This document shows positions 3,688 through 37,167 of a stretch of 64,000 nucleotides of DNA, in pieces (position 1 is the first letter of the stretch; every line of letters starts with the position of its first letter). Below the pieces are notes generated by a model, which was given only the letters and a program-made list of their open reading frames with translations, was not told where the DNA came from and did not search any database. The DNA is taken from positions 1 to 64,000 of the forward strand of contig JAJFKV010000007.1 in NCBI GenBank assembly GCA_021773055.1, written 5' to 3'. The stretch comes from Woeseiaceae bacterium. Lineage in GTDB: Bacteria; Pseudomonadota; Gammaproteobacteria; Steroidobacterales; Woeseiaceae. The position numbers were made by a program, and so were the translations under genes.

Positions 3688-3721
3688 TAGAATCAAAAAG
3701 TATTCAGCATTGTTGAACCAG

Positions 3722-3755: not shown

Positions 3756-3815
3756 GCTGTCTGAATTGGACGATGTTGCGCGGGCTGGTATTGCGAACTG
3801 TAAGGAACTACTGGA

Positions 3816-16401: not shown

Positions 16402-16439
16402 GGTTTCGGTGTACTGAGGAGTGTGGTTAGAATAGGCTC

Positions 16440-18678: not shown

Positions 18679-19899
18679 ATGAGTGCCGTCATGAAAAATG
18701 ACCAGCGGTCCATCGAAGAACTCATTGCGAGTCAGAAACCAGGTCATTCTCTTGACCAGAGGTTTTACACCGACCCCGCGATCTATGAGCTTGAAGTTGA
18801 GAAGATCGTCAATCGCAACTGGATACTCGCGGGCCATGTATCGCAGTTGGCGGAGCCGGGTGATTTCACGGTCCTTGATGTAGGCAAAGAGTCCGCGATT
18901 ATTGTTCGCGGTAAAGATGGCAGTCTCAATGGCTTCGCAAATGTCTGTCGTCATCGCGGCTCTCTTGTCTGTCTTGAGCGGCAAGGTCATACCGACAAAC
19001 TCGTGTGTCCGTACCACGGCTGGATGTATGACATCGATGGCAATTTGATTGCCGCTCGAAACATGCACGAAGACTTCGACAAGACAGCCCACGGTTTGAA
19101 GCCCGTATCAGTCGGCGAAATCCATGGCCTGATTCTGGTGTGTTTCGACGACAATCCGCCATCGCTGGCAGGTGCAATTCGTGACCTCGAAGAACCTATG
19201 GGAATGTACGATTTCGAGAACCTCAAAGTCGTTGCACAAAAGAGCTATGCGATTCCCGCGAACTGGAAGCTGATGATCGAGAATTATCAGGAGTGCTACC
19301 ACTGCGCCACGTCTCACCCCGAGTACGCATTGATGCATACGATGATGCTCGACGATGAAAAGCGCGAGCGCGCGTCTACGCACATGTACGAAAATATGGA
19401 AGCCTGCGGCATCAAAGATATTTGCATCGATCACGTCGATAGTGCGGCAAGACCCGGCGAGATCGGATACGGCTTTGCGCGAACGGCGATGTTTAGCAAG
19501 TACAAGACAGGCAGTAAAGACGGCCAGCCGGTAGCACCACTCCTGGGTAGTATCACTGGCTATGACGGTGGCCAGGCGGATTTATCATTTGGGCCGTTCT
19601 CGTTCCTGCTCGCATACAACGACCATGTTGTTTGCTACGTATTTACGCCTGTCGACCATAACAATTCCAATTGCGAGATCTACTGGTTGGTTCGCAGTGA
19701 TGCGAAAGAAGGCAAGGATTACGATGTGGACGCCTTGACGTGGTTATGGGATATCACCACGCAGGCCGACAAAGAGATTATCGTCAATAATTCTAAAGGT
19801 GTGCATTCCAAGTATTACGAGCCGGGGCCGTTTTCCGGAATGGAAGATCTCGAGCAGATCTATATCGAGTGGATCCTGGCCGAGTTGCAAAGGTCCTAA
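18679..19899 (+). CDS. Rieske non-heme iron oxygenase, quaternary-amine type
   Basis: This 406-residue oxygenase alpha subunit has Rieske ligands C90-x-H92 and C110-x2-H113 (CRHRG...CPYHGW). The catalytic iron site is in 'ENYQECYHCATSHPEY' with H208 and H213, and D364 (TQADKEI) is a candidate for the carboxylate. The bridging position normally held by Asp is Glu (E205), as described for carnitine monooxygenase CntA and typical of the GbcA/CntA/stachydrine-demethylase group acting on quaternary amines. It is therefore predicted to hydroxylate an N-methyl or adjacent carbon of a betaine-like substrate. No dedicated ferredoxin reductase lies nearby. It converges on the importer operon with a 4-nt stop overlap and lies close to a BetI-like regulator. 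Confidence 0.85.
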   Translation: MSAVMKNDQRSIEELIASQKPGHSLDQRFYTDPAIYELEVEKIVNRNWILAGHVSQLAEPGDFTVLDVGKESAIIVRGKDGSLNGFANVCRHRGSLVCLERQGHTDKLVCPYHGWMYDIDGNLIAARNMHEDFDKTAHGLKPVSVGEIHGLILVCFDDNPPSLAGAIRDLEEPMGMYDFENLKVVAQKSYAIPANWKLMIENYQECYHCATSHPEYALMHTMMLDDEKRERASTHMYENMEACGIKDICIDHVDSAARPGEIGYGFARTAMFSKYKTGSKDGQPVAPLLGSITGYDGGQADLSFGPFSFLLAYNDHVVCYVFTPVDHNNSNCEIYWLVRSDAKEGKDYDVDALTWLWDITTQADKEIIVNNSKGVHSKYYEPGPFSGMEDLEQIYIEWILAELQRS

Positions 19900-20699
19900 G
19901 GCTGCTTGGCCGACCGACGTATCACCAGCCAGGCGATGGCAACCCCAACGCTGACAACACCGATAATCAAAGATGCCAGTGCGTTGATATCAGGTGACAC
20001 ACCGAGCTTAACTTTCGAAAAGATATACATCGGCAGTGTTGTGCTACCGGGCCCGGATACGAAACTCGCGATAACAAGATCGTCGAGCGACAAGGTGAAC
20101 GATAGTAACCAGCCAGCCATCATTGCCGGCGCGATCAGCGGCAATGTGATGTCAAAGACAACCCGTAGCGGTCGGCCACCGAGATCCATTGCCGCCTCTT
20201 CAAGAGACTCATCCATTGCGAGCAGCCGTGATTGCACGATGACAGCGACGTAAGCCATTGAGAATGTTGTATGTGCGATCATTATAGTGGAGAAACCACG
20301 TTGCCCCGGCCAACCGGTCAGTTGCTGCAGTGTTACGAACATCAGTAACAGTGATAGCCCGGTGATAACCTCGGGCATGACCATCGGTGATGAGATCATT
20401 CCCGAAAACAGCGTGCGGCCCTTGAAACGACCGAATCGCGCCAACACGAAGCCGGCCATTGTTCCCAGGATTGTGGCTAGTGTCGCCGACGTGACAGCGA
20501 TTCGGACACTTAGAAATAAAGCATCGAGAACTTGCTCATTCCTGAAGAGTTCGCCATACCAGCGCGTCGAAAACCCACCCCACAATGTCGCCAGACTGGA
20601 GTCGTTGAACGAGTAGAAAACGACCGAGATCAACGGTATGTACAAAAACGCATAGCCAAAACACAGGACCGACAAGATGAATCGCGATTGTGTCTTCAT
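19896..20699 (-). CDS. ABC importer permease, PotC type
   Basis: This 267-residue inner-membrane permease has six helices. The EAA loop 'LEEAAMDLGGRPLRVVFDITLPLIAPAMMAGWLLSFTLSLDDLVIASFVSGPGSTTLPMYIF' is characteristic of PotC/PotI, and the N-terminus 'YAFLYIPLISVVFYSFNDS' also fits. It is the last gene of the importer operon, and its ATG overlaps the stop of the PotB-type gene. The family takes up polyamines and, in many bacteria, other cationic or quaternary amines. Specificity here is unknown, but the context favours an N-methylated amine. Confidence 0.93.
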   Translation of the reverse strand: MKTQSRFILSVLCFGYAFLYIPLISVVFYSFNDSSLATLWGGFSTRWYGELFRNEQVLDALFLSVRIAVTSATLATILGTMAGFVLARFGRFKGRTLFSGMISSPMVMPEVITGLSLLLMFVTLQQLTGWPGQRGFSTIMIAHTTFSMAYVAVIVQSRLLAMDESLEEAAMDLGGRPLRVVFDITLPLIAPAMMAGWLLSFTLSLDDLVIASFVSGPGSTTLPMYIFSKVKLGVSPDINALASLIIGVVSVGVAIAWLVIRRSAKQP

Positions 20700-21592
20700 G
20701 CCGCGTGCTCCTGATCGCTAGCCTGTGCTCGCTGCAGTAAGACGATAGGAACAACCAGCAACAACAACAAGACAGTCGCTACCGCGGTTGCTAACGGCCA
20801 GTCCCTATTTAGAAAGAACTCATCAAACAGGACGCGTCCGATAAACAGCGAATCGGGTCCGCCGAGCAAGTACGGAATCACATATTCGCCCATTGCCGGA
20901 ATAAAGACGAGTAAACAGCCGGCGATGGTTCCAGCTTTCGCGAGTGGCCACGTTATATCCCAAAATGCTCGAGTGCGTGAGGCACCGAGATCCTGCGCTG
21001 CTTCAACGAGATCCATGTCCATGCGTTCAAGTGATGCGTACAGCGGCAAAATCATAAAAGGTAGATAGGAATACACGAGCCCGACTGCCGTGGCGAAGTC
21101 GGTATACATGATTTGCAGGGGCTGCTCGATGAGACCAACCCAAATTAGTAAATTATTGATGACTCCATGGTTATTCATAAGTCCCATCCACGCATAAACG
21201 CGGAGCAAAAATGAAATCCAAAAAGGCAGGATGATCAGAAGTAACAAGAGATTGCGTGTTGCCGCGGAAGACCGGGCGATGCCATAGGCAATCGGAAAGC
21301 CCAGCAAAAGACAGAGAACCGTTGTGATCGTCGCCATAACGACGGATCGAATATAGGTTATCGCGTAAAGCTTATCCGATAGCAGGAAGCCATAATTGCC
21401 CAATGACATGGCCGGACTGCCATCGCTGTCAAAAGACGGCGAATAGGGTGGTTGCGCCAGAATAGGGTCACCAAGGCTGATCTTGAGAATGATTGCAAAC
21501 GGCGCGAGGAAAAAAACCAGTAGCCACAAATACGGGGCCGCGATAGCGAAGCGTTTCCACAGTTCGTCATTCTTGTGGATATCGTAACTCAT
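20696..21592 (-). CDS. ABC importer permease, PotB type
   Basis: This 298-residue permease pairs with the PotC-type subunit. 'YLWLLVFFLAPFAIILKISLGD', 'LIILPFWISFLLRVYAWMGLM' and the EAA loop 'MDLVEAAQDLGASRTRAFWDITWPLAKAGTIAGCLLVFIPAMGEYVIP' are typical of PotB/PotH. The start at 21592 is chosen because the ATG overlaps the TAA stop of the ATPase gene (TAATG). A longer frame upstream lies within the ATPase gene. Confidence 0.93.
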   Translation of the reverse strand: MSYDIHKNDELWKRFAIAAPYLWLLVFFLAPFAIILKISLGDPILAQPPYSPSFDSDGSPAMSLGNYGFLLSDKLYAITYIRSVVMATITTVLCLLLGFPIAYGIARSSAATRNLLLLLIILPFWISFLLRVYAWMGLMNNHGVINNLLIWVGLIEQPLQIMYTDFATAVGLVYSYLPFMILPLYASLERMDMDLVEAAQDLGASRTRAFWDITWPLAKAGTIAGCLLVFIPAMGEYVIPYLLGGPDSLFIGRVLFDEFFLNRDWPLATAVATVLLLLLVVPIVLLQRAQASDQEHAA

Positions 21593-22683
21593 TAGTCGAG
21601 CAAGACCACGGCGCTTTGCGGCTTCCACGAAATCCATACCTTGTCTTCCCACTCGAGAAAGCGCGTGATGGAGCGGCGTCTGTTCTGGGAGCTGACTTGT
21701 ACGATTTTGCCGCTGGCCAGTCGGATTCGGTACAGCGAACGGTTCCCAAGGTAGCCAAGATCATCGACGACACCCTCAATGCACACGTCGTCTGAATCGC
21801 CTGATTTCTCCTTGCCTATGAAAATTTTCTCAGGACGAACGGCTACTTCAATTTGTTGACCAACATCGACAAGTTGCCGGCCCAACGCTGTCAGGGTTTC
21901 GCCCGCTTCATCGGCGTAGACGCTGATCCTGTCTTTGTCGACGACAGTCACAACGCCTTCAAAGGTATTGATCGTACCAATGAAATTCGCCACAAATCGA
22001 TTGTGCGGGAACTCATAAATTTCCTTCGGCGTACCTACGTGCTGAAATCGGCCGTGGTCCATGACGGCGATGCGGTCAGAGAGAGTCATGGCCTCTTCCT
22101 GATCGTGCGTGACAACGACGAACGTGATGCCAAGTTCCTCCTGAATATTGATGAGCTCGAACTGGGTTTGCTCGCGAAGTTTCTTGTCGAGTGCGGCCAG
22201 CGGTTCGTCGAGAAGCAGAACCTTAGGTCGCTTGATCAATGCTCTGGCAAGCGCGACTCGCTGGCGTTGGCCGCCTGACAGCTGGTCAGGCTTGCGATCT
22301 TTGAGCTCGGAAAGTTGTACGAGCTGCAACATCTCATCGACGCGTTTGTTGATTTCCTTTTTGGCGATGTGGTCTTTGCGAAGACCGTAGGAAATATTTC
22401 TGGAAACGCTCATGTGAGGAAAAATCGCGTAAGACTGAAACATCATATTTACGGGCCGGTCATACGGCGCCTGGCATGTTACATCCACGCCGTCAATTTC
22501 GATGCTTCCAGACGTTGGCATCTCAAAGCCGGCAAGCATTCGCAACAAAGTCGTCTTGCCGCAGCCCGAGCCGCCGAGAATAGAAAACAACTCACCCTGA
22601 GCGATTTCAAGATCGACATTATTAACCGCGACAAAATCACCGAAGTGTTTGCTGATGCCTTTGATGTGAATAAAATTCTTCAC
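21592..22683 (-). CDS. ABC importer ATPase, PotA type
   Basis: This 363-residue ATPase has Walker A GGSGCGKTT at residues 37-45, Q-loop 'MMFQSYAIFPHMSV', signature 'QLSGGQRQRVALARAL', Walker B 'VLLLDEPLAALD' and H-loop 'VVTHDQEEAM'. A C-terminal TOBE-like regulatory domain includes 'VAVRPEKIFIGKE'. It energises the PotB/PotC-type permease. The GTG start at 22683 overlaps the stop of the binding-protein gene (GTGA); the longer frame upstream is shadow sequence inside that gene. Confidence 0.93.
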   Translation of the reverse strand: MKNFIHIKGISKHFGDFVAVNNVDLEIAQGELFSILGGSGCGKTTLLRMLAGFEMPTSGSIEIDGVDVTCQAPYDRPVNMMFQSYAIFPHMSVSRNISYGLRKDHIAKKEINKRVDEMLQLVQLSELKDRKPDQLSGGQRQRVALARALIKRPKVLLLDEPLAALDKKLREQTQFELINIQEELGITFVVVTHDQEEAMTLSDRIAVMDHGRFQHVGTPKEIYEFPHNRFVANFIGTINTFEGVVTVVDKDRISVYADEAGETLTALGRQLVDVGQQIEVAVRPEKIFIGKEKSGDSDDVCIEGVVDDLGYLGNRSLYRIRLASGKIVQVSSQNRRRSITRFLEWEDKVWISWKPQSAVVLLD

Positions 22684-23789
22684 AGGCCACTCTTCACGCG
22701 CGCGAGAGTTCGCGTTCGCATTCGTTCTTGTGCCGGGTCGGCCAGGTAGACCGCAAACATGCGGTCCCAAATTTCATCGTCGGGGTAGATTGCCGGATCA
22801 TTGAGTTTATCCTCGGGGAGAAACTCCCATGACGCCGCATTCGCGTTGGCGTAATCAACCTGGATAGCGATATCCGCAGCTATGTCCGCACGCAGCAGGA
22901 AATTCATGAATTTGTAAGCATTTTTGACGTGCGACGCATCAGTGGGAATGTAAATGCCGTCGACCCAGAGTGAAGCCCCTTCTATCGGTACCGTATATCG
23001 CATGTCTATTTCAATTCCGGCCTCTTGCGCGCGGCGCGCAGCCGTTGAGTAGTCACCGGACCAGCTCATGGAAACGCAAAGTTCTTTGTTGGGCATGTCT
23101 GAGATGAACTTATCATTGCTGAAATAACGCACATAAGGCCGGACCTTTGCCAGGAGTTCCTGAACCTTCGCCATGCTCTCCTCATCAATGGCGTTTGGGT
23201 CCAGCTCAAGATAAGCGAGAGCCATTGGAATGATGCTGGTCGTCCCGTCCAGAAAACTTACGCCGCAGTCTGCGAGCTTCGATATGATCGCCGGGTCGAA
23301 CAATACTGCGGCGGTGTCCATCGATTGATCGGGCAGTCTCTCGCGGACCATCTCGGCGTTCCAGCTAAAGCCCGTGGAGCCCCAGTGGTAGGGAATATTG
23401 TAGCCTCTGACCGTTTCATAGACGTCTATTCTTTTCATGGTTGCCGGGTCGAGGTTCTTCACGTTCGGCAGCAAGCTCATATCGAGTTTTTGGTAGACAC
23501 CGGTTTCGACCAGCCGGGCTGACAGAACATTAGCGTGCACTACGACGTCATAACCGCTATTGCCCGTGAGTAGTTTTACGTCAACCGTAGCCGATGCGGC
23601 ATAGGTGTCGTAATTGACCTTGATGCCCGTCTCCGATTCGAATCGCTCTATTGTGTCGGTCCCAATGTAATCCGCCCAGTTATAGACGTTAAGGACGTTT
23701 TCGGAGTCCGCGTCGGTCGTCGAATCACCGCCACAGGCAGCTAGCAATAACAGCAACGTGCTTGCGATGACGCTATTCGGTTTTGTCAC
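22680..23789 (-). CDS. periplasmic substrate-binding lipoprotein, PotD/PotF type
   Basis: This 369-residue solute-binding lipoprotein (lipobox LLLAAC) captures the substrate for the PotABC-type importer. Family landmarks are 'LNVYNWADYIGTDTIERFESETGIKVNYDTY', 'GYDVVVHA', 'IPYHWGSTGFSWN' and 'VSMSWSGDYSTAA'. The WADY and WSGD residues line the amine site in PotD/PotF, so a cationic ligand is expected. The GTG start overlaps the stop of the acyl-CoA dehydrogenase gene, making the transporter co-translated with a catabolic enzyme. This argues against a general polyamine importer. Confidence 0.92.
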   Translation of the reverse strand: MTKPNSVIASTLLLLLAACGGDSTTDADSENVLNVYNWADYIGTDTIERFESETGIKVNYDTYAASATVDVKLLTGNSGYDVVVHANVLSARLVETGVYQKLDMSLLPNVKNLDPATMKRIDVYETVRGYNIPYHWGSTGFSWNAEMVRERLPDQSMDTAAVLFDPAIISKLADCGVSFLDGTTSIIPMALAYLELDPNAIDEESMAKVQELLAKVRPYVRYFSNDKFISDMPNKELCVSMSWSGDYSTAARRAQEAGIEIDMRYTVPIEGASLWVDGIYIPTDASHVKNAYKFMNFLLRADIAADIAIQVDYANANAASWEFLPEDKLNDPAIYPDDEIWDRMFAVYLADPAQERMRTRTLARVKSGL

Positions 23790-24946
23790 ATGTTGTCCAG
23801 ACCGCGCTTCAGGAGCGATCGAGCGATTATAAGCCGTTGAATCTCACTTGTACCTTCCCAAATGCGATCTACACGTAATTCTCTGAAAAACCGTTCCGCG
23901 ACGTTCTCGCGCATATAGCCACGACCACCAAAAATTTGCACGGCACGATCGGCGACTCGATTCGCCATTTCGGAAACATACAGTTTCACTATGGAGCAGC
24001 GTACATGCTGAGCCTTTAGATCGTCACCGCGGTCCCATGACCGCGCTGCGTCATAAGTCATCAGTTGCGATGCGTAGAGTTCCGTAGCGCTATCCGCCAG
24101 CATGACCTGGATGATTTGTTTTTCGCTGAGCGGCGCGCCGTCAACAATACGTTCATTCGCAAACGCCATGGCCTCTTCAATGAGCCGCGCCGCCGCGCCG
24201 CAACTGCGCGCGCCGATCATGAGTCGCTCGTGACGAAACCAGCTGCGCGTGTAAGACATGCCATCGCCCGACTGGCCGACGCGTTGTGCCGCCGAAACCC
24301 GGACGTTAGTGAACTGGTAGGTCGGATGGTGCGCGGCGTAGCTGTGGCTGAACTTCGGGGTTGCGACGATCTCGATTCCCGATGTGCCCTTGTCAATAAG
24401 AAACAACGCATCTTCATCCTCGTCGGGAATGCGTCCCTGAAACCAGAAAAAGTCAGCCAGGTTAGCGCTGGTGACGTACCATTTTTCACCATTCAGGATG
24501 TAATCATCGCCGTCCCGGACCGCAGTCGCTTCGAGCATTGCAAGGTTGGACCCGGGACCGGATTCGGTAATCGCGTAACAGTCCTTTTTCTCGCCCCGCA
24601 TCATCGGCAAAATGTAGTTATCAATTTGCTCCTGTGAGCAAGCATCGAACATCCATTGCTGGGGTTCGGAGAAGCACCAGGACAACGCATTGGTGGTGCG
24701 TCCCAGCTGCTCCCAGATAGCGACCTGTGATTCCATGGACAATTCGCGACCGCCGTGGTCTTTCGGAACATCAATTTCAGAAAAGCCAAGCTCGATCGCA
24801 CGCTGCTTGTTTCGCCGCGTGATCTCATCGGGCAAAACACCGTCATTCAGTTCCGCCTCAACTTCATGCGGCTGCAGATATTCGTCGGCATACTCCCGAG
24901 CGATCGCCTGCCATTGCCGGGCGTCTGTGCTGATTTCGATTTTCAA
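23786..24946 (-). CDS. acyl-CoA dehydrogenase family flavoenzyme
   Basis: This is an FAD-dependent dehydrogenase of about 386 residues with 'CYAITESGPGSNLAML', 'NGEKWYVTSANLADFFWFQG', 'AVQIFGGRGYMRE' and the catalytic-Glu region 'RVDRIWEGTSEIQRLIIARSLLKRG'. It would introduce a double bond into a CoA thioester, or oxidise a related amine or acid. The TTG at 24946, 8 nt after the regulator's stop, is the suggested start; the open frame extends to 25006 inside the regulator gene, so the start is uncertain. It sits between the regulator and the importer, and an ADP-forming acyl-CoA synthetase lies on the divergent arm. Together these suggest a CoA-bound intermediate, as in gamma-butyrobetaine or carnitine breakdown. 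This is inference. Confidence 0.9.
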   Translation of the reverse strand: MKIEISTDARQWQAIAREYADEYLQPHEVEAELNDGVLPDEITRRNKQRAIELGFSEIDVPKDHGGRELSMESQVAIWEQLGRTTNALSWCFSEPQQWMFDACSQEQIDNYILPMMRGEKKDCYAITESGPGSNLAMLEATAVRDGDDYILNGEKWYVTSANLADFFWFQGRIPDEDEDALFLIDKGTSGIEIVATPKFSHSYAAHHPTYQFTNVRVSAAQRVGQSGDGMSYTRSWFRHERLMIGARSCGAAARLIEEAMAFANERIVDGAPLSEKQIIQVMLADSATELYASQLMTYDAARSWDRGDDLKAQHVRCSIVKLYVSEMANRVADRAVQIFGGRGYMRENVAERFFRELRVDRIWEGTSEIQRLIIARSLLKRGLDNM

Positions 24947-24953
24947 TGTTTTC

Positions 24954-25583
24954 TCACAGGGGAAAGTGTTGCGGAAAAATGCTGCACAGATATTCGTCGA
25001 CAGCATTGGCGGCGCTTAGCCGGTCAAATCGTTTCGGGCTGATCAGGTAGGAGAGCCACATACCATTGGTCACGGATGTCAGAACCGTCGCGACAGCCGC
25101 GCCGCTCACATTCTTGTATCGACCTGCTGTAATAATTTCGTCACACAAGGACCGCACGACGTCGTCGTAATACTCGTCGGACGCTTCACAAATTTCGCGA
25201 TAGCGGGGCCGCGATTTAACTTCTCCCCAAAATGCGAACCAGACAGCCAGTTTGCGGCGATCGAGGATGGACGGGCGCAGGTCGAGCTCCATCAGCGCAT
25301 GTAGCTTGGCTGCGGCGCCCGGGCCGGACCTGTCGAGTACGTGGTTAAACTGGGTTTTATAATCGTCAGCGATATAACGCAAGGTCTCATTTAGGAGATT
25401 TTCCTTGCTCTCGAAGTGCAGGTTGACAATACCCTGAGATAAGCCGGCTTCTTTGGCTACATCGCCCAGTGTGGTACTGCCCATACCTTTGCGGGCGATG
25501 CATTTCATCGTTGCGTTGATCAACTGCTGTTTGCGTTGCTCGCGCGTCGCGGTACGACGGGATTTTTTCGCTATGGCCGACAT
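24954..25583 (-). CDS. TetR-family regulator, BetI-like
   Basis: This 209-residue repressor has an N-terminal helix-turn-helix ('GSTTLGDVAKEAGLSQGIVNLHFESKENLL'). The whole-length pattern resembles BetI: 'QLINATMKCIARKGM' in helix 1, 'GIVNLHFESKENLLNETLRYI', and 'RKLAVWFAFWGEVKSRPRYREICEASDEYYDDVV' in the ligand domain. BetI represses choline/betaine genes and responds to choline-type ligands, which supports a quaternary-amine substrate for the island. The start at 25583 (MSAIAKKS) is preferred over the longer frame, whose extension would run through the palindrome between the two divergent operons. It is the first gene of the minus arm and probably autoregulates. Confidence 0.87.
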   Translation of the reverse strand: MSAIAKKSRRTATREQRKQQLINATMKCIARKGMGSTTLGDVAKEAGLSQGIVNLHFESKENLLNETLRYIADDYKTQFNHVLDRSGPGAAAKLHALMELDLRPSILDRRKLAVWFAFWGEVKSRPRYREICEASDEYYDDVVRSLCDEIITAGRYKNVSGAAVATVLTSVTNGMWLSYLISPKRFDRLSAANAVDEYLCSIFPQHFPL

Positions 25584-25603
25584 CAATGAATCATGCCATA
25601 ATC

Positions 25604-25621
25604 TGAATGAATACTCATTCA
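25604..25621. promoter_or_regulatory. 18-bp palindrome, putative operator of the BetI-like regulator
   Basis: TGAATGAATACTCATTCA is symmetric at 16 of its 18 positions; only the inner A/C pair breaks symmetry. It lies in the 68-nt gap between the divergent regulator (start 25583) and aminotransferase (start 25652) genes, where it could cover both promoters. Length and AT-rich half-sites fit TetR-family operators. Confidence 0.6.
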
Positions 25622-25651
25622 TTTTTCTTGTGTCCAGACTCGGAGAGTCGC

Positions 25652-30142: not shown

Positions 30143-31353
30143 CTATCGTTCAAGGACCCGTGCGAGAGGCGGTCCCTCAGGGGCCATTGAAGACACCGTT
30201 CTACCCGCGTGTTGAGAAGCTCGACACCGTCAATCAGTGGCATGAGTGGAAGGGATACTCCAGTCCTGACGCGTTGTACTGTGGGGATCTGGAATATTTC
30301 GCGATTCGGAATGGTACGGGAGTGTTCGATCTCTCGCCGATGACGAAATACCGGATAACCGGCCCCGATGCGCTGGATTACCTCAACCGCCTGGTGACGA
30401 GGGACATGGCGAAGGTTAAGCGCGGGCGCGTTGCCTATGCCGTTTGGTGTGACGATCAGGGTCAGGTTATCGACGATGGCACGATCTTCCACCTGCAAGA
30501 AGGCGAATATCGTCTTTGTTGTCAGGAGCGCCATTTCGCCTGGTTTCAGGCGGCGACGATTGGATTCGACGTTAGCGTTGTGCACGAGACCGAGGAAATC
30601 GCCGGTCTTGCGGTACAGGGACCAACCTCCTACAGCGTATTAAGGACGATGGGTGTTGAGGGTCTTGAAGAACTCAAGCCATTTGGATTGATCCATGTCG
30701 ATTTTCAAGGCTCGGAGATGATGGTCTCACGAACCGGATTCACAGCGGACCTCGGCTACGAGTTATGGATCGATCCAGGCAAAGCGCTGCAGTTATGGGA
30801 TGCACTGTTCGAGGCGGGCAAGGACTACAAAATTCGGGCGATAGGGACACATGCACTGGAACTCGCGCGTATTGAAGCGGGCTACCTCGCACCGTACGCC
30901 GAATTCCTGCCGTGCGACGAAACCATTCGAACAGGACGTTCCCGTTCGCCACTTGAGCTCGGTCTGGAGTGGCTCGTGGACTTCAAAAAGCCAAACTTCA
31001 ATGGCCGTCGCGCATTGGCTGAAGAAAAACGCAATGGATCGACGTGGCGTTTGGTGAAGCTCGATATCGAGGGTAATAAAATCGCAGACAGCTCGTACAT
31101 TTTCTCGAACCCGAAAGCAAAAGGCGATTCAATAGGATTTGTCACATCGGCCGCATGGTCGCCGGTTTGCAAACAGAATATTGCTCTAGGTACTGTGCTC
31201 GTGCCGCATGGCAAGCCTGGTGACACTGTTTGGGTCGAGGTTTACTACCAGCGTGAAATGCACTGGAATCGCGCCATGGCGAAAGCTACGGTTGTCGATA
31301 AACCGTTCTGGTTCCCGCCGCGGCGAGGAGCAACTCCGCCGGGTCCGTACTAG
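30139..31353 (+). CDS. GcvT-like aminomethyltransferase/demethylase
   Basis: This 404-residue stand-alone member of the glycine-cleavage T family has 'AIRNGTGVFDLSPMTKYRITGPDALDYLNRLVTRD', 'AYAVWCDDQGQVIDDGTIFHL', 'GLAVQGPTSYSVL', 'RTGFTADLGYELWIDPGKALQLWDAL' and C-terminal 'IGFVTSAAWSPVCKQNIALGTV', all typical of T-protein and dimethylglycine dehydrogenase C-terminal domains that pass a one-carbon unit to tetrahydrofolate. No GcvH or GcvP is nearby, so it is probably a catabolic demethylase. The ATG overlaps the stop of the flavoprotein gene; partnering with that flavoprotein is a reasonable guess (flavin oxidation of N-methyl followed by transfer to folate). Confidence 0.88.
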   Translation: MTIVQGPVREAVPQGPLKTPFYPRVEKLDTVNQWHEWKGYSSPDALYCGDLEYFAIRNGTGVFDLSPMTKYRITGPDALDYLNRLVTRDMAKVKRGRVAYAVWCDDQGQVIDDGTIFHLQEGEYRLCCQERHFAWFQAATIGFDVSVVHETEEIAGLAVQGPTSYSVLRTMGVEGLEELKPFGLIHVDFQGSEMMVSRTGFTADLGYELWIDPGKALQLWDALFEAGKDYKIRAIGTHALELARIEAGYLAPYAEFLPCDETIRTGRSRSPLELGLEWLVDFKKPNFNGRRALAEEKRNGSTWRLVKLDIEGNKIADSSYIFSNPKAKGDSIGFVTSAAWSPVCKQNIALGTVLVPHGKPGDTVWVEVYYQREMHWNRAMAKATVVDKPFWFPPRRGATPPGPY

Positions 31354-31362
31354 CGGATATGC

Positions 31363-33474
31363 GTGGTGAATAGACACCGGTTGGATCCGTTATTACGACC
31401 AAAATCGGTCGCAGTAGTGGGTGCGTCGAAGCGTGCCGATTCCATCGGCGAATGGGTGCTCAAGAACCTGAGCATTGGCGGTTACAAGGGTCACGTTTAC
31501 CCGGTTAATCCCCGCCACAGCAATATTCAGGGCCACCCCTGCTACAAGTCATTGTCCGAGCTGCCGGAAGTTCCGGAGCTTGTGGTTTTCGGTGTCGGCG
31601 ATCATCGCCTGGAGGCTGCGCTGGATGAGGCTATTTCTGCTGGCATTCCTGCCGCGGTCATCCAGTCGACGCTGGCACTGGACGATGACGCCGACCCGCC
31701 ACTGAAAGAACGGCTAAGACAAAAAATCGTCGCAGCCGGAATGCTCGTGTGCGGAGCCAACGGCATGGGTTATTACAATGTCCGTGACCACGTCTGGACC
31801 TGCGGGTTCGACAGCGCAGCACACGACGCGCCCGGCAACGTTGCGCTGATCAGCCACTCGGGTTCCGGAATGTCTGGCATCATCGATTGTGAAGAGCGTT
31901 TACAGATCAACCTCGCGGTATCGACCGGTAATGAACTCAGCACGACGATGGACGAGTATCTCGATTTCGCACTGGAATTGCCCGAGACCCGGGTTGTCGG
32001 GTTGTTCATCGAAACAGCACGCAATCCGGCAGGGTTCCGGGCTGCCCTGAAAAAAGCTGCGCAGCGCCGCATACCTGTCGTTGCATTGAAGTTGGGGCGT
32101 AGCGAAGAATCGGCGCAGCTCGCGGTTTCTCACTCCGGCGCTATGGCGGGTGATGATGCGACTTACGAGGCGTTGTTCGATCGCTATGGTGTGCAGCGCG
32201 CTAGTGATCAGGACGAACTCACAACGATGCTCATCATGTTTGCCGCACTGCACCCGGTCGGCGCTGGCGGCCTGGTGTCGTTGCACGATTCGGGCGGCGA
32301 GCGAGCTTTGCTCGTCGATCTCGCGGCCGACGCGAAGGTGCCGCTGACGCGGTTGTCTGAGAGCACCGTAAAGAAACTAGAAGAAGTTCTCGATCCGGAA
32401 TTGCCCGCCGTAAATCCGCTGGATGCCTGGAGCCGGGGCGGGCCGGATGCATCGTCGCAAATGGCACGTAGTTTGACATTGATGATGCAGGACAGAGCAG
32501 CGGCACTCGGTGCTGTCGTTCACGATCGGGCGCCCTTCGGAAAGATCTATCCAAGCTATCTCACATACATGCAACGTGCCCGCGCGGAGTCCGGCAAACC
32601 GGTCGCACTCGTATCCGCGACGCAGGGAAGCGGTTGCGATGAAGCAGTCGTTACCAGTACCCGGGCGGGATTCCCGGTTCTGGACGGCGTTAGTCAGTTC
32701 CTGAAAGGCGCGAACGCGCTGTTTGCTTATCGTGACTTTCTGTTACGCGCTCAATCCGAGTGGATGGTACCCGATGAAGCAGTCGTGACGTCCTGGCGGA
32801 GCCGATTACGTACCGGCGAGACGCTGGGCGAGCACGCTGCGCTGCAAATGCTCAGCGATTTTGGTGTGCAAACGTCATCACCCAAAGAAGCAGCCGACGA
32901 AGATACCGTTCTGGAGGCCGCGCAACAGTGTGCTTATCCGGTTGTTCTAAAATCGGCCCGGCCCGGTTTGCTGCATAAGTCGGATCAAGGGGGTGTTATC
33001 GTCGGCATCATCGATGCAGACCAGTTGCGGCAAATGTATGCGTTGATGCGGGGGCGTCTTGGCGACGATGTCCTGGTATCGAAAGTGGTGGATACCGGTG
33101 TCGAGATGTTTCTTGGACTGAAACGTGACCCGCAATTCGGTCCTGTTGTACTGCTCGGTTTTGGTGGTGTCCTGGCAGAAACGATCGACGACTTACAGTT
33201 TGCGTTGCCGCCGTTCGACGCAGAACATGCCCGTCGTTGCATCGACAGGATGAAATTACGACCACTCCTCGACGGAGTTCGTGGCGCACCCGCCGTCGAC
33301 GTCGATGCGTTTTGCACGATGGCTGAGCAGTTTTCTGTGATGGCGCACGCGTTACGTGATGTCGTTACGGAGATCGACGTTAATCCGGTCATTGTCAACG
33401 AAGGTGGTGCAGTAGCCGTCGACGCGTTGCTTGTCGGGCGCGATCGCAGACAGGAGCAGCGTGCAGAAACTTGA
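31363..33474 (+). CDS. ADP-forming acyl-CoA synthetase (acetyl-CoA synthetase-like)
   Basis: This 703-residue fused enzyme has an N-terminal CoA-binding domain ('RPKSVAVVGASKRADSIGEWVLKNL', 'GYKGHVYPVNP'), a succinyl-CoA-synthetase-like flavodoxin domain ('NVALISHSGSGMSG' and 'AQLAVSHSGAMAGDD', a probable phospho-His segment) and a C-terminal ATP-grasp domain ('YPVVLKSARPGLLHKSDQGGVIVGI', 'EIDVNPVIVNEGG'). It interconverts an organic acid plus CoA and ATP with the acyl-CoA, ADP and phosphate. In this operon it would activate the carbon skeleton left after amine removal for the acyl-CoA dehydrogenase on the opposite arm. The GTG start at 31363 could also be the next GTG. Confidence 0.9.
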   Translation: MVNRHRLDPLLRPKSVAVVGASKRADSIGEWVLKNLSIGGYKGHVYPVNPRHSNIQGHPCYKSLSELPEVPELVVFGVGDHRLEAALDEAISAGIPAAVIQSTLALDDDADPPLKERLRQKIVAAGMLVCGANGMGYYNVRDHVWTCGFDSAAHDAPGNVALISHSGSGMSGIIDCEERLQINLAVSTGNELSTTMDEYLDFALELPETRVVGLFIETARNPAGFRAALKKAAQRRIPVVALKLGRSEESAQLAVSHSGAMAGDDATYEALFDRYGVQRASDQDELTTMLIMFAALHPVGAGGLVSLHDSGGERALLVDLAADAKVPLTRLSESTVKKLEEVLDPELPAVNPLDAWSRGGPDASSQMARSLTLMMQDRAAALGAVVHDRAPFGKIYPSYLTYMQRARAESGKPVALVSATQGSGCDEAVVTSTRAGFPVLDGVSQFLKGANALFAYRDFLLRAQSEWMVPDEAVVTSWRSRLRTGETLGEHAALQMLSDFGVQTSSPKEAADEDTVLEAAQQCAYPVVLKSARPGLLHKSDQGGVIVGIIDADQLRQMYALMRGRLGDDVLVSKVVDTGVEMFLGLKRDPQFGPVVLLGFGGVLAETIDDLQFALPPFDAEHARRCIDRMKLRPLLDGVRGAPAVDVDAFCTMAEQFSVMAHALRDVVTEIDVNPVIVNEGGAVAVDALLVGRDRRQEQRAET

Positions 33475-34309
33475 TATATATCAATCGCTCTGGGGGATGG
33501 AGCTGCGCAAGCCCGGGCTGCCGGAGCGAAGCAAGGAAGAGGCTTTCAGGATGATCGCCGATGCCGGCTTCGATGGCGCGTGCATGGACCCGTCGGTGGC
33601 AGAAATTCCTGAGTGTCGCGAATACGCGCACTTGTTCGCGGCGCACAAACTTGCTTGCATGGTGAACGCATTTCCTTACAGTCCGGATGACATGGCACCG
33701 ATACTGGACTTTGCGACGGAAATGGATTCCCGCCTGGTGAATGTTATTAGCGGTGTGATGCCCATCAAACCCGAGGATGCCGTTTCCGATGTGTGTCGCT
33801 GGATTGGCGAGGCAGGTGATCGCGACATGCCACTGTTATTCGAGACACATCGTGACGGACTACTGAACGACCTGTACTTCACTCTACAGTTGATGGACCT
33901 TGTGCCCGAAATGCGTTTGTGCGCCGACCTTTCGCATTTTGTAGTGGATCGTGAACTGCGCTCACCCATTCCGCCGCGCGACCAGGCCTACATCAGCTCA
34001 GTGCTGAACCGCTCGGACTGTTTTCAGGGCCGTATTGCGAATCGCGAACAGGTACAGATCCAGATCAATTTTCCACAGCACCAGGAATGGGTGGAGATAT
34101 TCAAAGGCTGGTGGAAAGAAGGCATGCGCGAATGGCGCAAACGCAGTGATGATGATGCGACCCTCATTTTTCTGTGCGAACTTGGACCACCACCGTATGC
34201 GATAACGGATGGAAATCAGAACGAGTTATCTGATCGGTGGCAAGAGTCTTTACAAATCCGGGACTGGGCACGCACTATCTGGACGGAGCTTGAGAGCGAG
34301 AACGAATAA
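33461..34309 (+). CDS. TIM-barrel protein, sugar phosphate isomerase/AP-endonuclease-2-like
   Basis: This 282-residue protein resembles xylose-isomerase-like TIM barrels: 'AFRMIADAGFDGACMDPS', 'PLLFETHRDGLLND' (metal-ligand Glu), 'MRLCADLSHFVVDRE' (Asp and His) and 'LIFLCELGPPPYA' (Glu). The reaction is unknown; relatives isomerise or cleave small hydroxy acids and sugars. The GTG at 33461 is selected because AGGAG lies 4 nt upstream and the protein begins 'QKLDIYQSLWG'; the longer frame overlaps the synthetase gene. It shares one base with the MOSC start (TAATG). Confidence 0.72.
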   Translation: MQKLDIYQSLWGMELRKPGLPERSKEEAFRMIADAGFDGACMDPSVAEIPECREYAHLFAAHKLACMVNAFPYSPDDMAPILDFATEMDSRLVNVISGVMPIKPEDAVSDVCRWIGEAGDRDMPLLFETHRDGLLNDLYFTLQLMDLVPEMRLCADLSHFVVDRELRSPIPPRDQAYISSVLNRSDCFQGRIANREQVQIQINFPQHQEWVEIFKGWWKEGMREWRKRSDDDATLIFLCELGPPPYAITDGNQNELSDRWQESLQIRDWARTIWTELESENE

Positions 34310-34893
34310 TGAAAACCATAACAGCAACTGTTGTTTCAGTGCACTCTGGCGGTAGCGAGCAACTCGCCAAGGAAGAGCAGGCGTCGATTATTGTTGAGCT
34401 TGATGGTGTCGTTGGTGACCGTCATCGCTCGTACTCGCGCGAGGCCTGGGCTGGTGACAAACAAGCAAAAGGAACGGTGCGACGCAATGAACGGCAATGG
34501 TCAGCTGTATCTGCCGAAGAATTGCTTGAAATTCGGGGGGCGATGGATCTCGTAGAGCCGCTGACGGCAACTGCACTTGGTGCGAACCTGTGTCTTGAGG
34601 GTGTCGCCGAGTTATCGCGATTGCCGAAGGGCAGTATTTTGCGCTTTCCGACGGGCGCTGAGCTCATGGTTGCCGAGTACAATCCACCGTGTCTGGATAT
34701 GGGCACGAAACTCGCTGAGACACTGACAACGCGCTCCGGAGCGCCGCTGGAAAACACATCATTTTCCAAGGCGTCGAAATCGTTACGAGGCGTCGTCGGT
34801 GTGGTCGAAGTGGCCGGGATCATCAATCCCGGCGATGAGGTCGAAATTATTCCGTATGAGCACCCGTCGTGGCTTGCTCGCTCTGCCGATTAA
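34309..34893 (+). CDS. MOSC-domain protein
   Basis: This 194-residue protein shows the MOSC beta-barrel pattern: 'VELDGVVGDRHRS', 'NERQWSAVSAEELLEIRGAMD', 'ATALGANLCLEGV', 'SILRFPTGAELMVAEYNPPCLDMG', with Cys in 'NPPC' as the candidate molybdenum-cofactor or sulfur ligand. MOSC proteins carry sulfur or bind Moco, as in YiiM and mARC enzymes. It is unusual in an amine-catabolic operon; mARC-type reduction of N-hydroxylated compounds is one possible link, speculative. Its 3' end overlaps the convergent amidohydrolase gene by 47 nt. Confidence 0.78.
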   Translation: MKTITATVVSVHSGGSEQLAKEEQASIIVELDGVVGDRHRSYSREAWAGDKQAKGTVRRNERQWSAVSAEELLEIRGAMDLVEPLTATALGANLCLEGVAELSRLPKGSILRFPTGAELMVAEYNPPCLDMGTKLAETLTTRSGAPLENTSFSKASKSLRGVVGVVEVAGIINPGDEVEIIPYEHPSWLARSAD

Positions 34894-36193
34894 CAATCGT
34901 TCCACCCTTGATTACAACTCGGATATCCTGCAGCTCAGCAATATCGTCAAGCGGATTACCGCGTACGGCGATCAAGTCAGCGTAACGCCCGACCTCGATA
35001 GCGCCAACATCGCCAGCAACACCCATGTGATCTGCAGCCGCTGAGGTAGCGGACTGGATCGCCTTCATTGGCGCCATGCCGTGCTTCACCATTTCTGCAA
35101 ATTGCCGAGTGCCCATGTCGTGGGGGAGCACACCGAGATCGGTCCCGAACAGCAACGTCACGCCGGCGTCGAGCGATTTTCGAAATACCTCACGTTGTGC
35201 CTCTGTCGTTTCTTCGTTCTTCCGCATGAACTCCTCGGCGTAGCCGTGAGCCTCGCCAATCTCTTCAGTGTAGGTGCCGTTGTAAACGTCCATTGTGAAC
35301 GCGACATCGTGCTCCAGCGCCAGAGCGACTGATTCGTCGTCACCCAGAGAGGCATGTTCTATCGAACTGACACCAGCCAGGATTGCGTCCTTGATTGACT
35401 CCGCACTGTGCGCATGCGCGGTCACTTTAATTCCAGCAGCATCGGCGACTTCGACTACGGCCTTAATCTCCTCAAAAGTCATTTCCGGGGCGCCCGGAAT
35501 GCCGCCGTGTCCGAACACGGCGCCCGAGGCGATGACCTTGATGAAATCCGCGCCACCGGCAACGAATTCCTGGGTCCGGGCCCGGAATTCGTCAGGTCCG
35601 CGAGCAACTCCCATGCGGTAGTAGTCCGGAATCTCACTGTCGTCAATTCCGGGGATGTACATATCGCCGCCACCGTGCGGAATAGTCAGGTACGGGCCGG
35701 CTATCCGTATCCGGGGGCCTTCGACCTTGCCGGCTTCGATCTGATCCCTGAGATCCCGGGCAACCCATGCCTTGTAAGTACCGACGTTACGGACCGTGGT
35801 GAAGCCGGCTTTCAGGACAATGCCGGCAAGCTCTTCGGCGAGCTGTTGAGTGTCTTCCGGGGTGCGCCTGAGGTATATCGTATAGTCGTCGGCGTCTTCT
35901 GGCCGTCCGTCCAGGTGTACGTGCATATCGATCAATCCGGGCAGGCAGGTGTGCTCGCTCAGGTCCAGGATTTCGGCATCCGCCATTGACGGATCATTGC
36001 CGGCAAGAATTTCGCTGATGCGCTCCTGTCGAACAACAATAAGCTGGTCACGAGTAGGCTCATCCGACAACCCATTGATCATCACGCCACACCGAACAAT
36101 AAGGTCGACGTCATCGGCGTTTACTGTCTCGGTTTTCTGGCCGCAAGCGGTCGCAAGCAATAACAGGATAATTGGTACAACAAATCGATTCAC
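34847..36193 (-). CDS. amidohydrolase family lipoprotein
   Basis: This 448-residue metal-dependent hydrolase has a lipoprotein signal (lipobox LATAC). Metal and active-site motifs are 'LPGLIDMHVHLDG', 'GADFIKVIASGAV' (lysine), 'KVTAHAHS', 'SIEHASLGDD' and 'LLFGTDLGVLPHDMG', as in the imidazolonepropionase/Xaa-Pro-dipeptidase-like branch. It closes with 'GAIEVGRYADLIAV'. It probably hydrolyses amide or peptide bonds in the periplasm. GTG at 36193 is chosen because GGAG lies 6 nt upstream; the open frame begins with TTG at 36205. It is monocistronic and convergent with the MOSC gene. Confidence 0.87.
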   Translation of the reverse strand: MNRFVVPIILLLLATACGQKTETVNADDVDLIVRCGVMINGLSDEPTRDQLIVVRQERISEILAGNDPSMADAEILDLSEHTCLPGLIDMHVHLDGRPEDADDYTIYLRRTPEDTQQLAEELAGIVLKAGFTTVRNVGTYKAWVARDLRDQIEAGKVEGPRIRIAGPYLTIPHGGGDMYIPGIDDSEIPDYYRMGVARGPDEFRARTQEFVAGGADFIKVIASGAVFGHGGIPGAPEMTFEEIKAVVEVADAAGIKVTAHAHSAESIKDAILAGVSSIEHASLGDDESVALALEHDVAFTMDVYNGTYTEEIGEAHGYAEEFMRKNEETTEAQREVFRKSLDAGVTLLFGTDLGVLPHDMGTRQFAEMVKHGMAPMKAIQSATSAAADHMGVAGDVGAIEVGRYADLIAVRGNPLDDIAELQDIRVVIKGGTIVNRQSEQATTGAHTE

Positions 36194-36237
36194 CGGTGGC
36201 TCCAATTAGTTAAGCAAACAATAGTAAGCTGGCGAAC

Positions 36238-37167
36238 ATGTTGCCACAGGATTCAAAATTTATCCGGCTCCTAAAGCGTGCCCAGCCACTGCTGCTTGAT
36301 GGCGGCCTGGCAACTCAGCTTGAGGCACAGGGCTGTGATATTGGTAACGAACTCTGGTCAGCCTCCTTACTAAGTACGGATCCCGAATCCATTGTCATCG
36401 CACACCATGCCTATCTTGCGGCTGGCGCGGAGTGTCTCGCGACAGCCAGCTATCAGGCGAGTCGCGAAGGCTATGCAAAACAGGGTTTGTCGGCCGATGA
36501 AGCAGATGCATTGATGCTGTTATCTGTGATGCTCGCGAAGCGCGCGCGTGACGAAGCGGGGTCACAAGCCGCGATCGCTGCGAGCCTCGGGCCCTACGGT
36601 GCGATGTTACACGATGGTTCTGAGTACACGGGTAACTACGGCGTGACAGCAGATGTACTCAGAGACTTTCATCACACGAGATTACAGCTGTTTGATGCGG
36701 CGGGGACAGACGTGCTCGCATTGGAGACGATTCCCTCGTTACAGGAGGCGCTTATCTTGTCCGAGCTGCTCGGTGAGTGTGAAACGCCGTCCTGGATCAG
36801 CTTTTCGTGTCGAGATGAAAAGCACATTTGTGATGGCACACCGATAGCGAAAGTCGCGGGACTATTCGAAGGACATCCAACTGTTGCTGCCGTGGGTATT
36901 AACTGCACGCCGCCACAATACGCAGCGGCGCTGGTTCGTGAGTTGTGTACGGTGTTGCCGGGCAATTCTGTAATGGCATATCCAAATTCTGGCGAGACTT
37001 ATAACGTCTCTGACAAAAGTTGGTCGGGCACTGTCACGCCTGGTGATTGTGCGACCGCGGCCGTTGAGTGGATCGAGGCTGGTGCAACAATCGTTGGCGG
37101 CTGCTGTCGCATGGGTCCGGAGCACATTAGTGCCATGGCATCGCTTGTCAGCGAGGCTTATCGATAA
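36238..37167 (+). CDS. homocysteine S-methyltransferase family protein
   Basis: This 309-residue zinc-dependent methyltransferase barrel has 'LLDGGLATQLEAQG', 'CLATASYQASREGY', 'GINCTPPQY' (first Zn Cys) and 'ATIVGGCCRMGPEHI' (paired Zn Cys near the C-terminus). It transfers a methyl group from S-methylmethionine, S-adenosylmethionine or a betaine to homocysteine, giving methionine. Next to a BetI-regulated amine island, a betaine-type donor is attractive but unproven. The intergenic region to the divergent amidohydrolase is only 44 nt. Its 3' end overlaps the convergent HAD gene by 20 nt. Confidence 0.9.
   Translation: MLPQDSKFIRLLKRAQPLLLDGGLATQLEAQGCDIGNELWSASLLSTDPESIVIAHHAYLAAGAECLATASYQASREGYAKQGLSADEADALMLLSVMLAKRARDEAGSQAAIAASLGPYGAMLHDGSEYTGNYGVTADVLRDFHHTRLQLFDAAGTDVLALETIPSLQEALILSELLGECETPSWISFSCRDEKHICDGTPIAKVAGLFEGHPTVAAVGINCTPPQYAAALVRELCTVLPGNSVMAYPNSGETYNVSDKSWSGTVTPGDCATAAVEWIEAGATIVGGCCRMGPEHISAMASLVSEAYR

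Follow-up and report, generated by a model that had tools for sequence, protein, structure and literature searches.

The closest described counterparts of the locus reported here are spread over separate systems, namely, Rieske oxygenases of the Stc2 (proline betaine demethylase), GbcA and CntA type; the dimethylglycine and sarcosine oxidases and dehydrogenases and the trimethylamine N-oxide (TMAO) demethylase, which share an N-demethylation logic with a GcvT-type folate site; the PotFGHI/Puu/Spu polyamine systems; the choline repressor BetI; DddX, an ATP-dependent lyase of dimethylsulfoniopropionate (DMSP); and human PYROXD2. A corrinoid route for glycine betaine, as outlined in the available portion of PMC12478193, is a different system. 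We analyzed the first 64,000 nucleotides (the window) of contig JAJFKV010000007.1, from a Woeseiaceae-type metagenome-assembled genome (MAG) of 3.97 Mb and 89% completeness, in which an island at positions 18,679 to 37,167 brings relatives of such proteins together (Table 1). This island is a real, conserved catabolic unit, probably co-regulated, whose protein families are known and whose combination is new to the literature searched. Indeed, the preliminary description of this DNA had placed the combination outside the standard operons, and no described system with the same gene set appeared among the open-access literature matches listed. In the reading that we favour, with a probability of roughly 0.55, the island is dedicated to the degradation of a cationic amine that bears N-methyl groups, is probably quaternary and belongs with the polyamines, diamines or methyl-lysines, by the pathway proposed below.

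The island has two divergent arms. The minus-strand arm comprises, by coordinate, potI, potH, potG, potF, an acyl-CoA dehydrogenase (ACAD) and a BetI-like TetR gene, whereas the plus-strand arm encodes a class-III aminotransferase (AT3), two flavoproteins (FAD1 and FAD2), a GcvT-like protein, an ADP-forming CoA ligase (ACD), a TIM barrel and a MOSC protein. The Rieske gene converges with potI, and the two share 4 nt. All genes and domains named in the preliminary description were found in place, as open frames with Pfam and NCBIfam matches; its list was incomplete in that it left out an amidohydrolase gene (34847-36205, minus strand), which sits between the MOSC and homocysteine methyltransferase genes. 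The overlaps of 1-8 nt noted there were reproduced when gene starts were re-read by eye on the translations, namely, 4 nt for AT3/FAD1, FAD2/GcvT, potF/potG, potI/potH and ACAD/potF, 8 nt for FAD1/FAD2 and 1 nt for TIM/MOSC. Gene content, motifs, synteny and the uniqueness of the operator described below can be read directly from the DNA.

The pathway that we infer from these genes, including every reaction, the reaction order and the substrate, would run as follows. First, the amine would be taken up by the PotFGHI-type ABC importer, and the Rieske oxygenase would strip the first methyl group from the quaternary nitrogen as formaldehyde. Second, FAD1 and FAD2 would oxidise the other N-methyl groups, with the GcvT-like partner transferring the C1 unit to tetrahydrofolate. 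Third, the primary amine thus freed would be converted into an aldehyde by AT3 transamination and then into an acid by an aldehyde dehydrogenase (ALDH) encoded elsewhere in the genome, beside the cassette in some relatives; the acid would be activated by ACD and oxidised by ACAD. Both arms would be controlled by the BetI-like TetR, acting on a single palindrome between them. The prediction is thus of a complete pathway under a single operator, with a substrate class open to testing, and of a new pairing in which flavoproteins of the CrtI/PYROXD2 type work with a C1 acceptor of the GcvT type. We regard the demethylation chemistry as highly likely, and give the polyamine or methyl-lysine substrate class about an even chance.

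Evidence for an association of these genes comes first from near relatives, by name Woeseiaceae or other gammaproteobacterial or proteobacterial MAGs. A pattern scan with the GcvT-like protein yielded 86 relatives, the best 80 of which were kept as loci (L016-L095), with GcvT present in all by construction of the sample. FAD1, on the same strand, and FAD2 stand beside GcvT in 74 of these 80, at identities of at least 45%. Some relatives have the same layout as the window. Others (L056, L057, L062, L069 and L073) have a single-strand operon, Rieske-ACAD-AT3-FAD1-FAD2-GcvT-ACD, with neither importer nor TetR in the examined stretch; others still (L020, L027 and L072 among them) have a bare core of Rieske-FAD1-FAD2-GcvT, with the Rieske gene directly 5′ of FAD1; and L017 and L059 have importer, TetR and core without the AT3, ACAD and ACD genes. 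The two flavoproteins and GcvT make up the core, mostly accompanied by a Rieske oxygenase, to which the AT3/ACAD/ACD block and the TetR/importer set are added as modules. Co-occurrence was tested in the 43 related loci whose flanks reach 5 kb or more upstream and 2.2 kb or more downstream: AT3 is present in 29, of which 28 also have ACAD (Fisher 5e-9) and 27 also ACD (4e-8), and of 29 with ACAD, 28 have ACD and 28 have AT3. AT3, ACAD and ACD are therefore a nearly all-or-none block and, since the set also recurs in other classes, the association of the island genes is not due to chance. AT3 orthologues were found in 15 of 60 relatives (own genome counted), mostly on the cassette contig; in G007 and G023 they lie on a different contig, at a break. 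In two single-strand operons we also observed a 136-aa frame between FAD2 and GcvT (L061:5189-5599 and L069:9580-9990), the L061 copy being without a Pfam match.

The preliminary description had included the Rieske oxygenase in the unit, and this assignment was strengthened by its position at the head of the single-strand operons of five relatives and next to FAD1 in L020, L027 and L072. Of the 60 relatives (own genome counted), 27 have a Rieske gene, which shares its contig with GcvT in 18; among the 37 same-genus genomes, Rieske genes occur in 25 of 31 with GcvT and in 1 of 6 without it (Fisher 0.005; 3 of the 31 were counted from partial matches). A negative association of Rieske and importer within loci is an artefact of the 10-kb flank, because the Rieske gene lies about 11.4 kb upstream of GcvT where both exist (window, G010, G014, G015 and G029). 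The homocysteine S-methyltransferase, which had also been listed, is not supported as a member, with presence in just 15 of the 86 clustered loci. As candidates for the core, MmuM, the amidohydrolase, MOSC and TIM were rejected, recurring in just 15, 15, 13 and 27 of 86 loci, respectively.

Beyond near relatives, a search of sampled genomes found FAD1 at E <= 1e-150 in 11 of 398 from the phylum (own included) and in 5 of 369 from the class, the latter counting the own genome and one of its genus. In Alphaproteobacteria, FAD1 (59-63% identity) and GcvT (44-48%) were found on seven plasmid records; six were examined, one of two Shinella zoogloeoides records being left out, and in two unannotated ones the genes were assigned by our own comparison. 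Together with 10 loci from other classes (7 from one family, 5 of those from one genus), 3 from other families of the order and L091 and L093 from unplaced MAGs, these six make up 21 distant loci, in which we counted BetI-type TetR in 18, Pot-type ATPase in 15, a class-III aminotransferase match in 17 and Rieske in 9. All 10 loci chosen by their FAD1 alone have GcvT, as have the six plasmid loci examined. Cultured carriers of the cassette include S. zoogloeoides, Parasedimentitalea marina and Fuscovulum ytuae. The fullest distant locus, L130 (G380, another class), holds ACAD, ACD, an enoyl-CoA hydratase, ALDH, TetR, AT3, FAD1, FAD2, GcvT, two Rieske genes and PotFGHI in one stretch. The genome search proposed in the preliminary description thus found the set conserved in relatives and recurring in other classes. 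By contrast, paralogous FAD-FAD-GcvT cassettes of the order have TetR, Pot and Rieske genes in 0 of 17, and instead DAO amine oxidases in 10 and formaldehyde-activating GFA in 6 (9 and 5 when L104 and L105, which overlap and share one DAO/GFA set, are counted as one); 3 of the 17 are contigs shorter than 6 kb, and the choice of loci for the two groups was not blind. Since these paralogous cassettes branch within the wider family in the FAD1 tree, the gene association does not follow one simple clade. Near paralogous cassettes we also noticed a 283-aa family (L105:1960-2811, also in L106, L111, L114, L116 and L117; the L105 member is without Pfam or NCBIfam match), which lies among DAO amine oxidase and sometimes formaldehyde-activating genes, and near the cassette of four genomes of one genus a conserved frame (L124:14328-15446, also in L125-L127; the L124 copy has 372 aa and no Pfam match).

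With regard to regulation, the claim of a bidirectional, co-regulated unit gained support from a perfect palindrome, TGAATGA-ATAC-TCATTCA, in the gap of about 68 nt that separates the start of TetR (25583) from that of AT3 (25652). All 32 loci that were compared have it in this intergenic region, in L082 with one base changed. The exact sequence has one copy in the own genome and one each in 38 of 144 loci (one of these being a copy of the window site), and a 15-base form was found in 18 of 60 relatives (own included), at one site per genome; a backwards pattern, used as control, gave 2 hits among the 60. Seventeen of the 18 sites share a contig with the cassette and either adjoin AT3 or lie shortly upstream of the cassette; in G024, where the cassette is split, the site is on the Rieske contig, 7.1 kb from the Rieske gene versus 6.9 kb in the window. 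Because the palindrome, where present, is unique in its genome and, so far as the contigs show, never lies away from this locus, it is a well-supported inference that one predicted operator serves both arms in this family. Farther away, the exact operator is found in L091 but in none of the plasmid loci (L096-L101) and in none of L122-L131; a different palindrome stands in L128 and in L093, and in several further loci no palindrome exceeds the length reached in shuffled sequence. The regulator has the TetR_C_6 domain, so that the description as BetI-like stands, yet a strict BetI identity does not, as it falls below both curated cut-offs (TIGR03384, 98.6 versus 201.3 bits; NF001978, 94.6 versus 118 bits). 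It also differs from BetI in its predicted operator, which presumably equals the Bacillus subtilis FadR consensus, and for this reason an acyl-CoA may be the inducer. Adjoining the TetR gene of L077 is a 484-aa frame without Pfam or NCBIfam match (3275-4729), which may be spurious.

The demethylation chemistry is suggested by the Rieske oxygenase and the flavoprotein/GcvT core. The best NCBIfam model of the former is GbcA (NF058607; 316.5 bits, below the cut-off of 670), and its closest PDB entries, at 264 bits, are 4qup and 3vca, which we take to be Stc2 structures. It shares with Stc2, GbcA and CntA the fold family, the Cys/His ligands and two iron-binding His (27-28 of 28 sequences), and a bridging Glu in place of Asp, Glu205 (28 of 28), the bridging residue of CntA. 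The signature of the quaternary-ammonium group (CxH/CxxH, bridging Glu, HxxxxH) is found at those positions. The GcvT-like protein matches the TMAO demethylase model best (NF053776; 242 bits, over profile positions 379-756 of 763), below the cut-off of 1100 and without the N-terminal domain, and scores 150 bits against TMAO demethylase structure 9q5a; glycine-cleavage T-protein models fall short as well (PRK00389, 219.6 versus 300; TIGR00528, 172.8 versus 235.85). Its folate-binding Asp113 is conserved in 115 of 116 sequences. Together, these residues point to the N-methylated, probably quaternary amine that the preliminary description had proposed. What differs from dimethylglycine and sarcosine enzymes and TMAO demethylase is that the oxidase would be a CrtI/PYROXD2-type pair with no DAO fold, and that GcvT is a separate chain.

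The flavoproteins themselves were modelled with AlphaFold (pLDDT 87.6 for FAD1 and 83.7 for FAD2). The closest solved fold of FAD1 is carotenoid desaturase 4rep (Z 33.2), followed by renalase (24), putrescine oxidase (22) and monoamine oxidase (MAO; 21), and for FAD2 the Foldseek order is 4rep, then 3ka7 and NicA2, with putrescine oxidase and MAO lower. A fold match alone is no proof of function. These folds, and CrtO (NF045689) as best NCBIfam model of both, would suit CrtI-like enzymes acting on a lipid or carotenoid in an accidental neighbourhood; however, the CrtO scores of 271 bits (FAD1) and 235 bits (FAD2) compare with a cut-off of 1000, and the neighbourhood is conserved across classes, which makes this explanation hardly credible.

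The enzymes of the later steps are less specific. AT3 scores 449 bits against the GntE model (cut-off 525), and its PLP-binding Lys287 (numbering from 25607) is present in 36 of 36 sequences. ACAD is by sequence a generic acyl-CoA dehydrogenase, closest in the PDB to CarC (168 bits), with a C-terminal WEGT motif and its Glu present; it scores 169 bits against CaiA (cut-off 540) and higher against AcrC and FadE. A glutaryl-CoA dehydrogenase was considered and rejected (125 bits against a cut-off of 470). ACD belongs to the superfamily of DddX and conserves the phospho-His (His257) and the equivalent of DddX Trp391 (Trp356) in 39 of 39 sequences; reviewers of the DddX paper, in the part available, considered His and Trp to be weak evidence for a common function, and the same part gives Glu432 as the general base of DddX (PMC8163506). 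In ACD, this position is Ser398 by a pairwise alignment with a gap close by; Ser occupies it in 25 of 39 sequences, and Glu is outside the three commonest residues. Therefore, ACD is probably a ligase rather than a lyase. The Ser also speaks against a sulfonium substrate, such as a DMSP-like compound or S-methylmethionine, for which the island would be a DMSP-demethylation look-alike. In its favour are the ligase, closest to DddX, the GcvT-like protein (151 bits to the DmdA model), the MmuM-type homocysteine methyltransferase downstream, and a DMSP-lyase-type cupin (PF16867, 65.8 bits; L099:24647-25498) directly after PotFGHI in the cassette of Fuscovulum ytuae. Nevertheless, the DmdA cut-off is 410 bits, the methyltransferase is just loosely linked, and the quaternary-amine Rieske and Pot importer would be left unexplained, so that we consider a sulfonium very unlikely.

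The importer bears directly on the substrate. It had been described as PotABCD-type; a complete Pot-type importer is present, whose closest models are PotFGHI (putrescine), not PotABCD. The ATPase exceeds the cut-off of the polyamine subfamily TIGR01187 (406 versus 355.6 bits), whereas PotF, PotG, PotH and PotI are all below their equivalog cut-offs (PotF, 303.6 versus 636 bits). According to the available portion of PMC8666671, PotF residues S38, D39 and D247 contact the proximal amine and E185 and D278 are among the distal-side residues; among 250 PotF homologues, E185 is kept in at least 96% and Trp occupies position 276 in a third. The window PotF retains W37, D39, W244, D247, D278 and Y314, with changes F276W and E185S, the tryptophans W37, W244 and W276 forming a box. 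In 31 further homologues, W37, D39, W244 and D247 are kept in 31 of 31, and D278, Y314 and Trp276 in 30 of 30 with a residue there; the Glu185 position is Asp in 26, Ser in 3 and Thr in 2. With the acidic amine-binding residues retained and Glu185 replaced, the pocket looks still amine-binding with an altered distal end. An ordinary polyamine uptake and catabolic system, in which the flavoproteins would oxidise unmethylated amines and the GcvT-like protein would be incidental, accords with the importer type, a class-III aminotransferase and, in some relatives, neighbours of the PuuC, PuuA and acetylpolyamine amidohydrolase (APAH) type. Yet the island differs from PotFGHI/Puu/Spu systems in the added demethylation genes, namely, the constant GcvT with its folate Asp and the linked quaternary-type Rieske, and in the loss of Glu185 in 31 of 31. 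Moreover, the own genome has a relative (64%) of the PuuA-like gene of L076 in a separate locus, with a second glutamine synthetase (GS)-fold gene, Peptidase_C26, a class-III aminotransferase and a ureohydrolase. We thus consider ordinary polyamine catabolism quite unlikely.

Related loci add genes that bear on the substrate class. An APAH gene (375 bits to 9gkz) is beside the cassette in 7 of 80 loci, a PuuC-like ALDH in 6 of 80 (one partial) and in L118 and L120, and a PuuA-like GS-fold gene lies in the L076 operon, between hydratase and amidohydrolase. Because of these genes and the PotF pocket, N-methylated polyamines, diamines or lysine-derived amines are favoured as substrate over a simple betaine, and the betaine or carnitine substrate that had been considered earlier lost ground to a polyamine- or methyl-lysine-type cation. 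A zwitterion such as gamma-butyrobetaine, 5-trimethylaminovalerate or beta-alanine betaine would undergo CoA ligation and dehydrogenation as the betaine acid, and its demethylation would give an amino acid for AT3. Such a route fits a Rieske closest to the Stc2/GbcA group, a CoA ligase closest to DddX, which activates betaine-like DMSP, and the CaiA score of ACAD; the enoyl-CoA hydratase of L130 is closest to CaiD (290 bits), neighbouring ALDHs give scores of the betaine-aldehyde dehydrogenase (BADH) type, and Arg at the Ser87 position of 5 of 31 PotF homologues, L130 among them, could hold a carboxylate. However, the binding protein is PotF-type with acidic residues, the window PotF has no new basic residue at 22 positions examined, ACAD and the hydratase fall below the CaiA and CaiD cut-offs (540 and 500), AcrC and FadE scoring higher for ACAD, and APAH accompanies the cassette in the loci counted above. 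A betaine-type substrate is thus possible but not probable.

Several further observations weigh against a dedicated unit for an N-methylated polyamine-type amine. First, membership is variable: a close Rieske is missing in 6 of 31 same-genus cassette genomes, including G026 (completeness 100%), so that the pairing of Rieske and cassette is strong, not absolute; in loci such as L020, L027 and L072 the examined stretch contains the core but no importer, TetR or aminotransferase gene; and the Rhizobiaceae binding protein and aminotransferase belong to other subfamilies. No Rieske reductase was found among the island genes, the rest of the genome not having been searched for one. Second, the exact operator is not upstream of the Rieske gene in the window (at 0 mismatches, the central site only; at up to 3 mismatches, 2 hits versus 2.9 expected by chance), and when up to 2 mismatches are allowed, 14 operator-like sites turn up in the own genome (G000) versus 4 for the control, the 13 elsewhere, at 1-2 mismatches, being possibly part of a wider regulon. 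Third, no PotF-like binding protein other than that of the window was found in the genome, which is 89% complete, and for this reason the importer could be a general polyamine importer. Fourth, the substrate markers are ambiguous. APAH, ALDH and PuuA-like genes occur in a minority of loci and none in the window; in the own genome, the nearest to an APAH is a distant relative at 27% identity, and the best ALDH match reaches 41%. The PuuC-like ALDHs score 526-554 bits (cut-off 850) against 468-509 with BADH models, the L130 ALDH is closest to BADH models, and its CaiD/BADH-like neighbourhood would also suit a betaine. The PuuA-like protein of L076 scores 202 bits with GlnA versus 196, below the cut-off, with gamma-glutamylputrescine synthetase, and its PDB matches are headed by glutamine synthetases.

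The dedicated-unit reading may reach beyond bacteria, as we take FAD1 and FAD2 to resemble human PYROXD2, although neither the 13 PDB matches to the FAD1 sequence nor the fold matches listed for both proteins include a chain of that name. In the available part of PMC8109053 (Table 3), one PYROXD2 missense variant explains 50% of the variance of N6-methyllysine in plasma, 48% for N6,N6-dimethyllysine and 21% for N-methylpipecolate, and the methyl-lysine association is given as replicated in an excerpt of PMC9730628. The accessible portion of a PYROXD2 disease paper states that the precise function of the protein is little known; PMC8777681, on PYROXD2 disease, contains none of the terms lysine, amine and bacteri-. 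Since human variants track methyl-lysines and the precise function is little known, a bacterial operon with two PYROXD2-like proteins beside a folate C1 acceptor makes this orphan function testable. With respect to sources, diatom silica contains methylated long-chain polyamines, some with quaternary nitrogen, as well as dimethyl-lysine and trimethyl-hydroxylysine (PMC3806462, in part), and methylated long-chain polyamines are reported from diatom-bearing sediments (PMC12206195, in part). Among the matches listed, no titles or abstract beginnings name genes consuming these compounds. Searches on Woeseiaceae and betaine gave nothing that, judged by title or opening of the abstract, concerns this system, those on PYROXD2 and demethylase an expression study only, on trimethyllysine, Rieske and bacteria mostly carnitine and TMAO reviews, and on the island gene set a lignin-degradation genome paper only; homarine catabolism was discarded as a known match, as the literature searched gave no comparable gene set. 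Woeseiaceae are abundant in marine sediments. It is tempting to speculate, as an idea that we ourselves hold to be unlikely, that FAD1-FAD2-GcvT could be an undescribed folate-coupled N-demethylase class of PYROXD2-type flavoproteins, recycling N-methylated polyamines and methyl-lysines (e.g. those of diatom biosilica, with its methylated long-chain polyamines and its trimethyl-hydroxylysine) in sediment Woeseiaceae, and that the function so far missing for human PYROXD2 would then be this same demethylation of methyl-lysine.

Table 1. Features of the island, with window positions and supporting matches.
Feature	Position	Strand	Basis and remarks
Rieske-type oxygenase (quaternary-ammonium group), proposed first N-demethylation	18679..19899	+	Pfam Rieske and Ring_hydroxyl_A
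PotI-like permease	19896..20699	-	NCBIfam PotI 354 bits (below cut-off 476)
PotH-like permease	20696..21652	-	start probably near 21592; NCBIfam PotH 370 bits (below cut-off 489)
PotG/PotA-like ATPase	21592..22683	-	start re-read from 22770; TIGR01187 potA subfamily 406 bits (above cut-off 355.6)
PotF-like substrate-binding protein	22680..23789	-	311 bits to SpuD 3ttl
ACAD, acyl-CoA dehydrogenase	23786..24946	-	start near 24946; Pfam
BetI-like TetR repressor	24954..25583	-	TetR_N and TetR_C_6
Predicted operator TGAATGA-ATAC-TCATTCA	25604..25621		single exact TGAATGANNNNTCATTCA in 3.97 Mb genome
AT3, class-III (HemL/GntE-like) aminotransferase	25652..26980	+	Aminotran_3 207 bits
FAD1, PYROXD2/CrtI-type flavoprotein	26977..28593	+	Pfam/NCBIfam
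FAD2, PYROXD2/CrtI-type flavoprotein	28586..30142	+	Pfam/NCBIfam
GcvT-like folate-dependent C1 transferase	30139..31353	+	GCV_T 194 bits
ACD, ADP-forming acyl-CoA ligase	31363..33474	+	best PDB DddX 7cm9, 248 bits
TIM-barrel protein	33431..34309	+	start uncertain; AP_endonuc_2 19.9 bits (below cut-off 31.1)
MOSC-domain protein	34309..34893	+	MOSC 43 bits
Amidohydrolase, loosely linked neighbour	34847..36205	-	NF051886 424 bits (below cut-off 500)
Homocysteine S-methyltransferase (MmuM), loosely linked neighbour	36238..37167	+	PRK09485 352.6 bits (above cut-off 215)

Within the window, no tRNAs or Rfam families were found, and GC content ranges from 0.51 to 0.58 per 2-kb window with no sharp break seen. 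A defence association was looked for in the TIM-barrel protein and none was found. The MOSC gene stands beside two kinds of FAD-FAD-GcvT cassette, as it also adjoins 4 of the 17 paralogous ones (L102:6409-7050, L107, L113 and L114), and our guess is that its product could be a reductase of N-oxides or hydroxylamines. Finally, genes for Zip-like, YtkA-like and MauG/MbnH-like di-haem proteins lie upstream of the Rieske gene (15811-18589), and the same trio was found 5′ of Rieske or FAD1 in L018, L020 and L027; it may be an ancestral neighbour of the cassette.

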